From positions 1-40,809 of the forward strand of contig CABMCA010000118.1 of assembly GCA_902384525.1 (NCBI GenBank): a stretch of DNA of 40,809 nt, read 5' to 3'. The notes under the pieces were generated by a model that saw nothing but the letters and a program-made list of their open reading frames with translations, did no database searches and had not been told where the DNA came from. Made by a program: the position numbers and the translations under genes. Of the stretch, positions 7,400-10,377 are shown one piece after another. The DNA comes from an uncultured archaeon (GTDB lineage: Archaea; Halobacteriota; Methanosarcinia; Methanosarcinales; Methanoperedenaceae). Position 1 is the stretch's first letter, and each line of letters starts with the position of its first letter.

Positions 7400-7867
7400 T
7401 TATGTTACAGTTATCTGCATCTGGGTTATTACCTGGCCTGATGGGACATCTTGAAGCATTACTTTCAAAATAGTTCCCTTATCAGGTGCAGTTCCATTCC
7501 AGTTATGAATTATGCTTGTTCCTGCACCAAGAGTATCGATCGCAATTCCTGATTGGAATTCAGTCCCATTAAGACGCAAATTTGTTCCCATAAGACCGTC
7601 AACTATAGCTCCATTAACAGCATTAGTAACTGTCATTTTCTGATCTTTCAGAATCAGTGCATCTCCTCCATTATGGGTAATTTGGAATGTACCGCCAGAT
7701 CCATTATTTATTGCCGATACTCTCAACTGCACCGATGGCGCTTTTGCCGGGGGTGCCATACCGAATACGAATGCAGCGATAACTGCTGCTAATATTACAG
7801 TGATCGCAACCATCAGGATAACACCGATGACTGGCGATACTGCCTCTTCATTGTTTCTAAGTTTCAT
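7400..7867 (-). CDS. Archaeal type IV pilin (PF07790-type N-terminus)
   Basis: This 155-residue protein begins MKLRNNEEAVSPVIGVILMVAITVILAAVI, the hallmark of archaeal class III-like prepilins: a short charged leader, the VSPVIGVILMVAITVILAAV core helix that packs in the pilus, then a beta-rich head domain (APSVQLRVSAINNGSGGTF and following). The prepilin peptidase would cut near the start of the hydrophobic helix. A strong AGGAGG ribosome site overlaps the end of the upstream gene, which stops only 2 bases before this ATG. The product is expected on the cell surface, in adhesion or extracellular filament formation. No pilus ATPase or platform gene lies nearby, so assembly must use machinery encoded elsewhere. 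Confidence 0.9.
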   Translation of the reverse strand: MKLRNNEEAVSPVIGVILMVAITVILAAVIAAFVFGMAPPAKAPSVQLRVSAINNGSGGTFQITHNGGDALILKDQKMTVTNAVNGAIVDGLMGTNLRLNGTEFQSGIAIDTLGAGTSIIHNWNGTAPDKGTILKVMLQDVPSGQVITQMQITVT

Positions 7868-7869
7868 TT

Positions 7870-8085
7870 TTATTTTTCCTCCTGATATATTCCTTTAGTT
7901 CTATTTTTTACAACGTTTTCGAGTTTTGTAGTCCACATATTCTGAATCTGTGTATATTCACATTCAAGATAATGTGAGACTGCCTTGGCGAGAGCGTCTT
8001 TGGTATTGGTTTCGCCCGTCTTTGCTTTCAGGGCATCGATATCCTCTACCATGAGAACCGTTTGTACATGCATTATTTTCGCCAT
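7870..8085 (-). CDS. DUF5371-like small protein upstream of pilin
   Basis: This 71-residue protein has the block VQTVLMVEDIDALKAKTGETNTKDALAKAVSHYLECEY, which I recognise as the pattern of small methanogen proteins labelled DUF5371. The N-D-ALAKAV-HYL helix resembles the second helix of ribbon-helix-helix regulators, so DNA binding is possible. The ribosome site GAAGGAGAC sits 5 bases before the ATG. It is the first gene of the pilin operon, ending 2 bases before the pilin start, and could control it. Confidence 0.68.
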   Translation of the reverse strand: MAKIMHVQTVLMVEDIDALKAKTGETNTKDALAKAVSHYLECEYTQIQNMWTTKLENVVKNRTKGIYQEEK

Positions 8086-8357: not shown

Positions 8358-8915
8358 TTAATTATTGGTGCGTGATACATATTTTTGAATATTTTTTCTA
8401 AAAAACAGGAATACATCGCTTGAAACGTGTTCGTACAGATCTTCATCATCTTGCCTTTTGACCTGGGTAACTGAGTATCTTTCTAAAGATAATTCTTCTT
8501 TTAAAAGAGTCTCCATTGCAGGTATTTCTTTTTCTATTTCTTCAAAAATTCTGCTTTTCCAGAGGATTTTTGGATCTTCAATAGCATGGATCAATTCTCT
8601 TGCTACACTACCCGTTTTCCCTCTGCATGTAAAGACAAGGATATTCAAATCAGCCCATTCCAGGCAATCTAAACTCTTTTCCAGGTTTGGAATACCTGAT
8701 CCTTCAGAGCTCGAAAATTCCTCAACTATAGCAGTATTTGTATATCCATCTGCTTTCAAGCGATCACGGAGTTTTATTAGACGTTCCCTTTCCCCTGGTG
8801 GATTATAAGCACCATATATGGCGATGTGGATTTTATCCTTATACGCAAGAATGGATTCTTTTTTCGTCCTCTGAAATTCACTGAATCTTTTTTGAATCTT
8901 CACGTTCAGGATCAC
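8358..8915 (-). CDS. Unknown protein with nucleoside deoxyribosyltransferase/TIR-like Rossmann features
   Basis: In this 185-residue protein, residues 28-125 look like an alpha/beta fold: IHIAIYGAYNPPGERERLIKLRD (strand with a G-x-Y-N turn), then NLEKSLDCLEWADLNILVFTCRGKTGSVARELIHAIE. The order of a small-residue turn, an A-D-x-x-I-L-V strand, then G-x-x-x-x-x-x-E helix resembles nucleoside 2-deoxyribosyltransferases and TIR-like NADases, where that Glu is catalytic. This is a pattern-level suggestion only. The C-terminal 60 residues are helical and charged. GTG at 8915 is the first start; GTG at 8903 is an alternative. It is divergent from a winged-helix regulator across a palindromic site. 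Confidence 0.5.
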   Translation of the reverse strand: MILNVKIQKRFSEFQRTKKESILAYKDKIHIAIYGAYNPPGERERLIKLRDRLKADGYTNTAIVEEFSSSEGSGIPNLEKSLDCLEWADLNILVFTCRGKTGSVARELIHAIEDPKILWKSRIFEEIEKEIPAMETLLKEELSLERYSVTQVKRQDDEDLYEHVSSDVFLFFRKNIQKYVSRTNN

Positions 8916-8961
8916 ACGCCCTTTTAAGACAGATTCGATAGATAAGCTTTTACCTTAGTAG

Positions 8962-8994
8962 AAATAAATATACACAAGTATACCAAGGTATACT
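8962..8994. promoter_or_regulatory. Divergent promoter with palindromic operator candidate
   Basis: AGTATACC at 8977-8984 and GGTATACT at 8987-8994 are perfect inverted arms separated by AA. Just before them, AAATAAATATA (about 8962-8972) can serve as TATA box for the plus-strand regulator at 9017, placing its start site inside or at the edge of the palindrome. Read backwards, TATATTTATTT can serve the minus-strand gene at 8915. A related half-site, TACCTTAGTA, lies at 8951-8960. The layout fits a repressor controlling its own gene and perhaps its neighbour. Confidence 0.62.
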
Positions 8995-9016
8995 CAATGC
9001 CTTTAGAGAGTTGACA

Positions 9017-9445
9017 ATGGGAATAAATAAAAAAATAGAAGAATACGCAAACGAGATGCCGATAGAGCTTATAAGAGCGATAGAGGCTTTAAATGACGAT
9101 TTTAGAAGGGCTATTTTCTTTGTTCTCCTCAAAAACGGCAACCTGTCCTTCACTCAGATAATGACCGAATTAGAAATACCCCGTAAAGATAGCAGCATCC
9201 TCTCTCATCACCTGAAAATACTTGAAAAAGGATCACTCATCAAAAACGAATATGCCAAAAAAGAAGGTACGGATAGCCATTCTTTCTATGACCTTACAGG
9301 GTTCGGAGAGGATATCCTTAATGGATTAATGGATACGCTTGTTGTTCCTGATTTAACTGTTCAACCTATTGAACCACTTAAAAAACTGCTAATTCAGGTA
9401 GGATCAAATCGATCTGATAAAGTATTCAAGGAACTGACAAAATGA
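9017..9445 (+). CDS. ArsR-type winged-helix transcriptional regulator
   Basis: This 142-residue protein contains a winged-helix domain at about 10-95: LIRAIEALNDDFRRAIFFVLLKNGNLSFTQIMTEL, then the recognition helix SSILSHHLKILEKGSLIKNEY and a wing reading SHSFYDLTGFGEDIL. The SHHLKxLExGxLI block is typical of ArsR-like HTH_20/HTH_5 domains. No metal-binding Cys motif is visible. The ATG at 9017 is preferred over the TTG at 9011. The start codon lies 23 bases after a palindromic operator candidate, suggesting autorepression. The next gene overlaps its end by 4 bases. Confidence 0.82.
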   Translation: MGINKKIEEYANEMPIELIRAIEALNDDFRRAIFFVLLKNGNLSFTQIMTELEIPRKDSSILSHHLKILEKGSLIKNEYAKKEGTDSHSFYDLTGFGEDILNGLMDTLVVPDLTVQPIEPLKKLLIQVGSNRSDKVFKELTK

Positions 9446-9654
9446 ATCTGACATCTCAAGAAGTTGAAAGGATGGAGTATCTTCTGGGCAAATCCAGATT
9501 AAGCTATCTAACCAAGAAGGAAGAATCTATATTGCGCGATCTAATCGTAAAAGAGAATCCTTCAGCTAAGGATAATTCTCTGGATGACTTGATCAAACTT
9601 GGGTTAACCCTTGTTGGATTGTATGTTTTAGCAAAGGCACTGGATGAGAAATAA
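9442..9654 (+). CDS. Small protein coupled to the winged-helix regulator
   Basis: This 70-residue protein has a charged helical first part (TSQEVERMEYLLGKSRLSYLTKKEESILRDLI), resembling a short helical hairpin, and then a hydrophobic helix (LIKLGLTLVGLYVLAKAL) near the C-terminus that could insert in or lie on the membrane. Its ATG overlaps the regulator stop (ATGA), so it is translated with it and may act as its partner or membrane tether. No family is recognised. Confidence 0.65.
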   Translation: MNLTSQEVERMEYLLGKSRLSYLTKKEESILRDLIVKENPSAKDNSLDDLIKLGLTLVGLYVLAKALDEK

Positions 9655-9705: not shown

Positions 9706-10377
9706 ATGATATCCATCGGTGTATTAACGCGGGGAAAATACGGCTTGCGCCTGATCGAAAATATCAGGAACAGTTCCGGTTTCAAGGTCTCATCATTAGA
9801 ACTTCCTGAATCACTTCCCGATTTCATAGAAGAACCGGAAGAATTTATCAAAGGGTTGGATCTGGATAAAACCTTTTTTTCAAATGACCTGATAATAGCT
9901 TACATAATGCATCCTGACCTGGCGCCTGAAATTGTCCGGCTTGCAGGCGAAAACGGGGCTCACGCTGTAATTATCGCAGGAGGCGCGGCAATTGCAGGCG
10001 GAAGAGATGAGCTTTTAAACCTGTCCGAAAAATATGGCATTCACATCGAGATACATGAGATATGCTGCGATATAGGACAATCAAGCAACAGTACCGTTAC
10101 GGAATTTGCAACATGTTTTGGAAGGCCGCAAATACATATCACTACAAAAGATGGTCTGATCTCTACCGTAAAGGTCATCCGGGGCGCCCCATGCGGAAGT
10201 ACATGGCACATGGCAAAAAACCTTGTCGGGTCAAAAACAGATGAAGCTCCTGCAAAAGGCGGTCTTCTTGTGCAGCAATATCCATGCAGGGCCATCCGGG
10301 GCACAAAAGGCGGAATACATAAAGCTGCGAAGTTTCATAAGGAAGCAGTGGAAAAAGCATTAAAGGAGAGTGATTAA
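9706..10377 (+). CDS. DUF166 family protein
   Basis: This 223-residue protein matches the DUF166 pattern known mainly from methanogens, where it was once labelled a thymidylate synthase-like protein. It begins ISIGVLTRGKYGLRLIENI, and the later conserved pieces are AHAVIIAGGAAIAGGRDEL, IHEICCDIG, the VIRGAPCGSTWHMAKNLVG block and VQQYPCRAIRGTKGGIHKAA. Conserved Cys residues in these blocks suggest metal or thiol chemistry, but the reaction is not established. The stop codon is directly followed by the malic-enzyme ATG, so the two are cotranscribed. Confidence 0.78.
   Translation: MISIGVLTRGKYGLRLIENIRNSSGFKVSSLELPESLPDFIEEPEEFIKGLDLDKTFFSNDLIIAYIMHPDLAPEIVRLAGENGAHAVIIAGGAAIAGGRDELLNLSEKYGIHIEIHEICCDIGQSSNSTVTEFATCFGRPQIHITTKDGLISTVKVIRGAPCGSTWHMAKNLVGSKTDEAPAKGGLLVQQYPCRAIRGTKGGIHKAAKFHKEAVEKALKESD

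Follow-up and report, generated by a model that had tools for sequence, protein, structure and literature searches.

Effectors with the fold of TIR domains and nucleoside deoxyribosyltransferases (NDTs) are typical of prokaryotic immunity. For DNPH1, PMC10603095 describes a catalytic triad Y24/D80/E104, in which the glutamate is the nucleophile and D80 and Y24 are its partners. The locus described here encodes a protein of this predicted fold, designated A, next to a winged-helix regulator, designated R. A resembles the NDT family (PF05014), DNPH1/RCL and MilB with respect to predicted fold and the position of a conserved glutamate; in contrast to these enzymes, it has no Pfam match, lacks the catalytic aspartate motif DxDSG, which is invariant in 11 archaeal NDTs, carries an invariant serine where the NDT profile has an asparagine, and comes paired with a regulator. 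With TIR domains, including TIR-STING and SEFIR, A shares the predicted fold and a single conserved glutamate; unlike these, it is a small stand-alone protein without a sensor domain and without a TIR match in Pfam. R corresponds to regulators of the ArsR/HxlR/MarR type in its HTH_5 match and its fold, but possesses an additional, putative docking tail and a candidate operator consisting of several phased boxes.

Two families named in Pfam are close to this arrangement. DUF7509 proteins (PF24349) of haloarchaea are like A in that they match its profile and are encoded divergently from a homologous winged-helix gene; the operator sequence of these loci differs from the one described below, and a third gene is established only outside the haloarchaea. 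DUF3467 (PF11950) is the third gene after R in Methanococcoides (L020) and, with scores below the cut-off, in further loci, whereas in Methanoperedens its place is taken by a protein of 70 residues (S70). A search of the full-text literature, with subscription papers and preprints outside its scope, found no description of the A-R module, no paper on DUF7509, nothing on winged-helix transcriptional regulators of Methanoperedens, and only unrelated work on DUF3467 and on a nucleoside 2-deoxyribosyltransferase of Haloferax volcanii. The A-R module is real, conserved and undescribed, and its parts belong to known folds.

Organization of the locus

The window, i.e. the whole stretch of 40,809 nucleotides analysed, corresponds to contig G000:C118 in its entirety and belongs to an archaeal genome of 2.92 Mb. 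Its A protein is 97% identical to that of Candidatus Methanoperedens sp. BLZ2 and 83% identical to that of Ca. M. nitroreducens, the closest named matches, which identifies the contig as coming from a relative of Methanoperedens. A and R are oriented head-to-head and are separated by a gap of 102 nt. The start of the S70 reading frame (9442-9654) shares 4 nt with the end of R; S70 is the coupled, membrane-like protein of 70 residues mentioned in the earlier note. The features are as follows:

8358..8915, minus strand: gene A, 185 residues, GTG start, predicted TIR/nucleoside-deoxyribosyltransferase fold
8936..8950, minus strand: possible promoter element of A, AAAGCTTATCTATCG, about 27 nt before the GTG start, proposed from its sequence
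8948..8953, plus strand: weaker candidate for a fifth box, TTTTAC, one 10-bp step nearer to gene A (a two-mismatch match of the array, shifted by 20 bp)
8958..8993, plus strand: candidate operator of four boxes in 10-bp phase, GTAGAA-N4-ATATAC-N4-GTATAC-N4-GTATAC (22/22 specified bases)
8962..8972, plus strand: putative TATA-like, AT-rich stretch AAATAAATATA of the R promoter, placed by its composition and by the usual geometry of archaeal promoters
8977..8994: perfect 8+2+8 palindrome AGTATACCAAGGTATACT, i.e. boxes 3 and 4 plus flanks
9017..9445, plus strand: gene R, winged-helix regulator of 142 residues, ATG start, alternative TTG at 9011; winged-helix domain at residues 1-108 and C-terminal helix at 119-140, according to the HTH_5 match and the predicted model
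9371..9442, plus strand: tail at the C-terminus of R (IEPLKKLLIQVGSNRSDKVFK...), with homology to that of a small membrane protein which precedes S70 elsewhere
9442..9654, plus strand: gene S70, 70 residues, C-terminal hydrophobic helix at residues 49-67

Fold and putative active site of A

The model of A, generated from 16 relatives, has a mean pLDDT of 81 and adopts the flavodoxin-like fold of TIR domains. In a Foldseek search, TIR-STING, TIR and deoxyribosyltransferases were the best matches, with E-values between 1e-3 and 2e-2. VIA-align gave a Z-score of 12.4 for a bacterial STING chain (2.7 Å for 122 residues) and of 12.3 for DNPH1 (3.6 Å for 136 residues) as well as for MAL TIR and MilB; TIR and TIR-STING chains scored between 11 and 12.4, values that do not separate a TIR from an NDT fold. 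The sequence-only reading had noted a resemblance of A to NAD- or nucleoside-cleaving enzymes, which is in agreement with this predicted fold and Z-scores of about 12. At the level of sequence families, A had no match in Pfam, NCBIfam or PADLOC, TIR families included: the PF05014 profile stayed below a match, and the sole Pfam row was YqzH with an E-value of 0.11. Searches with phmmer and hmmsearch against the PDB sequences gave nothing credible.

A profile-profile comparison by means of hhalign with the 11 archaeal NDTs yielded a probability of 86.4% and placed E107 of A on the glutamate (E83) of the NDT motif 'SGTAWEIGYA'; the catalytic-Glu position of the NDT family, '(S)GT..E.G.A', is thus filled by E107. 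Among 31 aligned relatives of A, 12 of which are haloarchaeal DUF7509 proteins, G35 and E107 occur in 31/31 and S81 in 30/31 sequences, and residue 37 is a tyrosine or a phenylalanine in all of them. S81 may correspond to D80 of DNPH1, whose Y24 presumably has no equivalent in A. Because of the fold, the alignment with the NDT glutamate and these near-invariant residues, A is likely to possess an active site around E107. Left out of this alignment and of the operator comparison below were L012 (the contig stops before R), L036 (N runs), L056 (broken), L059 (R undelimited), L060, L062, L063, L066 and L037; in two haloarchaeal cases (L040 and others) the start codon was picked by eye.

Pairing of A and R

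Three samples were compared, namely 237 genomes of the class, 294 genomes of the phylum and 31 genomes of the genus. Strong matches of A were found in 15 of the 237 class genomes; a sixteenth (G195, E-value 5e-4) is a different, pentapeptide-like protein and was left out of the co-occurrence count. A strong R (E ≤ 1e-11) accompanies A in all 15 of these genomes and occurs in only one of the 222 without A (G030). In the phylum sample, 17 of the 294 genomes had a match of A with E ≤ 0.01, and A is divergent from a related winged-helix gene also at L053, L054, L055, L057, L058, L061 and L064. DUF7509, whose members are remote relatives of A, was detected in 21 of the 294 genomes and in the control genome of Haloferax volcanii. 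At each of the 12 haloarchaeal DUF7509 loci inspected, a divergent winged-helix gene matches the R profile (E-values from 8.6e-16 to 5.9e-11) and the DUF7509 protein matches the A profile (6.2e-7 to 3.3e-3). The DUF7509 profile itself did not match A of the window, and the relative encoded at L012 reached 16.1 bits, which is under the cut-off of 27. Distance matrices of A and R from 30 loci correlate with r = 0.97, a value reached in 0 of 5000 permutations, and those of the 18 non-haloarchaeal loci with r = 0.96; shared species descent can explain part of this correlation. Judged by these sequences, the association of A with R is old, and the pair occurs across the Halobacteriota.

Within the genus, A is patchy and matches in 6 of 31 genomes. 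In G011 (L006, 1510-1896) A is truncated, and in G030 (L134, upstream of 2698) it is disrupted near the start, where other sequence takes over; both genomes retain intact R and S70 genes. A second, distant relative of A with 24% identity lies at a contig end of G024 (C49; L012, 1444-2049), a genome which also carries the A-R locus L004. One further A-R copy (L017, JAQVOS010000076.1) is located on a contig of 3.7 kb that is labelled as part of a Bacilli genome and is probably a misplaced archaeal contig.

The candidate operator

The perfect inverted repeat AGTATACCAAGGTATACT lies, as the sequence-only reading had stated, between the reading frames of the 185-residue protein and of the winged-helix protein. 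By itself, a palindrome of this size is unremarkable, because the window holds seven perfect inverted repeats with arms of at least 8 nt and a gap of 0-6 nt; the score of this one was matched by about one in 100 dinucleotide shuffles of the 102-nt gap. It turned out to be the visible end of the phased array that covers the predicted promoter of R, and to this extent it does belong to a predicted regulatory site. Boxes 1 and 2 overlap the TATA-like stretch; since the array reaches into this element, placing the palindrome at the expected start site of R, as the earlier note did, is a fair reading of the promoter geometry.

For the comparison of the A-R gap, 23 loci were used, ten of which belong to the R clade of the window: L001 (identical to the window), L002, L003, L004, L005, L006, L017, L018, L020 and L032, with L001/L002 and L003/L004 being near-duplicates. 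For three TATAC boxes, the mean best score over the ten loci was 13.5 out of 15 at a period of 10, versus 9.2-10.4 at periods of 7-9 and 11-14. According to dinucleotide shuffles, the phasing has P ≤ 0.01 in nine of the ten loci, the exception being L020 (P = 0.27). The pattern GTANAA-N4-ATATAC-N4-GTANAC-N4-RTATAC was set on the Methanoperedens copies and then applied to the five loci outside them; as these loci had already been viewed by eye at that stage, they count as held-out only with regard to their sequence. Four of the five were positive, with 19-21 of 22 bases and P = 0.001 each (L005, L017, L018, L032), and L020 failed (13/22, P = 0.46) despite belonging to the same R clade. In 11 control gaps from other R clades, L053 reached 16/22 at P = 0.003 and none of the other ten had a P-value below 0.05. 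In G030, whose A gene is disrupted, R is still preceded by the array (14/15). The gap of L017 shows five boxes at 10-bp phase.

In its own genome, the array has a single full match, which is the one in the A-R gap. When up to two mismatches were allowed, the hits in this genome were the site itself, an overlapping match displaced along it and one additional place. With up to three mismatches, AGTATACCNNGGTATACT was found at the own site and at three other places of the same genome (three mismatches each), whereas its reversed control gave 18 matches on each strand. Further targets are not evident from these searches.

The palindrome as such is not conserved upstream of homologues, the outcome which the earlier note had named as counting against its reading: it recurs exactly in BLZ2, whose copy is near-identical, and takes the form AGTATACTNNAGTATACT in L017, and what the other copies of this R clade conserve is the set of boxes in 10-bp phase. 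As a conserved operator the palindrome was also dismissed on statistical grounds, given that it beats the shuffles in some of the 23 gaps only (it fails in L006 with P = 0.97, in L018 with 0.33 and in L032 with 0.67). R clades other than that of the window carry palindromes of their own in the corresponding position, immediately past the TATA-like element of R, namely GTGAACATTTGTTCAC (L008-L010) and GTGAGGATTTACTCAC (L011). The haloarchaeal gaps are mostly 95-98 nt long; apparent palindromes, read by eye, follow a TATAAA-like box in them, TCAGTAACTACTGA being one example.

The regulator, its tail and the third gene

R matches HTH_5 (PF01022) with 27.2 bits at a cut-off of 22, and its model resembles folds of the MarR/HxlR/ArsR type with Z-scores of about 10. 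With the ArsR/SmtB metalloregulator family of NCBIfam (NF033788), it scored 31.4 bits, which is below the cut-off of 55. In the model, the tail of R is a separate helix of low confidence (pLDDT below 50), as is expected of a docking part.

The gene following R is S70 in the window, in BLZ2, in Ca. M. nitroreducens and in G024, G011 and G030. In L005, L017, L018, L020 and L032 it is a DUF3467-like gene; of the four copies scanned, the Pfam score exceeds the cut-off in L020 (45.1 bits) and stays below it in L018, L032 and L005. At L058 and L061, a DUF3467-like gene faces R, as judged by eye, and at L007, L010, L011 and L052 the locus includes other small proteins. The third place is thus taken by varying proteins. 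The proposed co-occurrence of all three genes holds for A and R but not for S70, which is present in 13 of the 237 class genomes: it is accompanied by A in five, by R alone in G030 and by neither in the remaining seven (G008, G035, G052, G060, G102, G185, G218).

In these seven genomes, S70 overlaps the gene of a protein of 67-89 residues with an N-terminal hydrophobic stretch. An HMM of the C-terminal 45 residues of the seven small membrane-protein partners was compared with the 2780 reading frames of the fetched loci and matched only R of six Methanoperedens genomes, with E-values from 9.4e-8 to 4e-5 (34 rows, which reduce to six R genes once redundant copies are discounted); the tail is absent from R of the other copies. 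These matches indicate that S70 and the tail travel together, the tail being attached to a membrane segment in some genomes and to a DNA-binding domain in others. The pair of small membrane protein and S70 might constitute an independent system. It was seen in L135, L136 and L137 (G060, G185 and G008), which are integrase-bearing or mobile-looking regions of other Methanosarcinales. A match of S70 to SieB (12.6 bits, E-value 0.1) was treated as chance.

Proposed mechanism and alternatives

We lean towards the view that the locus is an autoregulated, divergently transcribed switch, in which R represses itself and controls the glycosidase-like enzyme A. R would bind the phased array and repress its own promoter; self-repression is the most likely effect, because the boxes extend over the TATA-like element of this promoter. 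An R oligomer would probably limit A as well, since the array comes within about 10-20 bp of the possible promoter element of A. R could also activate A, which is compatible with the array being positioned upstream of the A promoter. In the autoregulated switch as it may operate in Methanoperedens, the tail of R would dock onto S70, which is small, hydrophobic, probably membrane-attached and presumably co-translated with R; this contact would set the amount of R free for DNA and could hold R at the membrane. Upon release of R, A would be made and would probably cleave or transfer an N-glycosidic bond of a nucleotide or an NAD-like substrate via E107. More tentative, and in our opinion rather doubtful, is the extension to a whole family of switches, in which a glycosidase of TIR/NDT fold would be controlled by an autorepressor whose tail docks onto exchangeable partners (S70, DUF3467-like proteins, others); the partner would then pick the releasing signal, which might be membrane state, infection or a metabolite.

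The module might alternatively be antiviral or toxin-antitoxin-like, with A as a nucleotide- or NAD-depleting effector that is held by R (and S70) and freed on infection or membrane disturbance. The fold of A, which is typical of immunity effectors, its patchy presence within the genus, the broken A beside retained R and S70 in G011 and G030, and the integrase genes that adjoin the S70 pair at two of the three loci scanned (L135, L136) are consistent with such a role. We nevertheless consider it unlikely: PADLOC contained no family for A or S70 and for R only the general winged-helix parts of Csa3, CasR and CARF proteins. The 94 neighbouring reading frames of 15 loci, analysed with PADLOC and Pfam, are mostly housekeeping genes (ATP synthase, tRNA synthetase, transport genes) with few AAA-type or defence-like ones, a result for the 25 commonest of 97 families, which means that single defence matches may be missed. 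The stress or defence role put forward in the sequence-only reading thus gains no support from PADLOC or from the neighbours. Moreover, the viral contigs, phages and plasmids searched contained no relatives of A, and A and R lie on opposite strands, in contrast to classical two-gene toxin-antitoxin operons.

The housekeeping character of the commonest neighbours and the wide distribution of A would equally suit a role in nucleotide salvage or clean-up of the nucleotide pool, with A as a DNPH1-like hydrolase and R sensing a nucleotide. DNPH1 and MilB are among the top structural matches of A, and the E107 motif resembles theirs, as judged from the hhalign result and from the DNPH1 chemistry given in PMC10603095. 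This explanation appears improbable to us, as those genomes with A that were searched already hold one to three canonical PF05014 proteins, the DNPH1 triad is not evidently complete in A with only the glutamate being clear, and patchiness inside one genus would be unusual for such a function. We give similarly little credence to A being a non-enzymatic ligand-binding partner, which would sense a nucleotide and control R by protein contact: the very tight A-R linkage and the missing NDT aspartate would agree with it, but all 31 aligned relatives share the glutamate which serves as nucleophile in proteins of this fold, and R of G030 keeps its array despite the disrupted A.

If the autoregulated switch is the correct reading, the Halobacteriota would hold an old, patchily kept combination of a repressor and an enzyme of TIR/NDT fold with an interchangeable third part, and DUF7509 and DUF3467 would gain a genetic context. 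The module is testable in a workable host, because DUF7509 is matched in the genome of Haloferax volcanii. The phased array provides a precise, falsifiable candidate operator, by which the control of such enzymes in archaea becomes testable.

Neighbouring genes

Relatives of S70 were likewise absent from the viral contigs and phages searched, and a viral origin of A or S70 was rejected for lack of relatives in these two collections. A DUF166 gene, which lies beside the module, was found in 30 of 31 relatives; in the eight flanks inspected the genes adjoining it differ, and for this reason no clean empty site can be defined. In the window, the DUF166 protein is encoded at 9706-10377 (plus strand) and is followed by malic-enzyme-like and rhomboid-like genes; this order occurs also in several Methanoperedens genomes without an adjoining A-R-S70 module. 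Close downstream of A, a DUF5371 protein (93 bits) is encoded at 7870-8085 on the minus strand and adjoins a type IV pilin (7400-7867). Both genes adjoin A in the BLZ2 copy (L002) as well.
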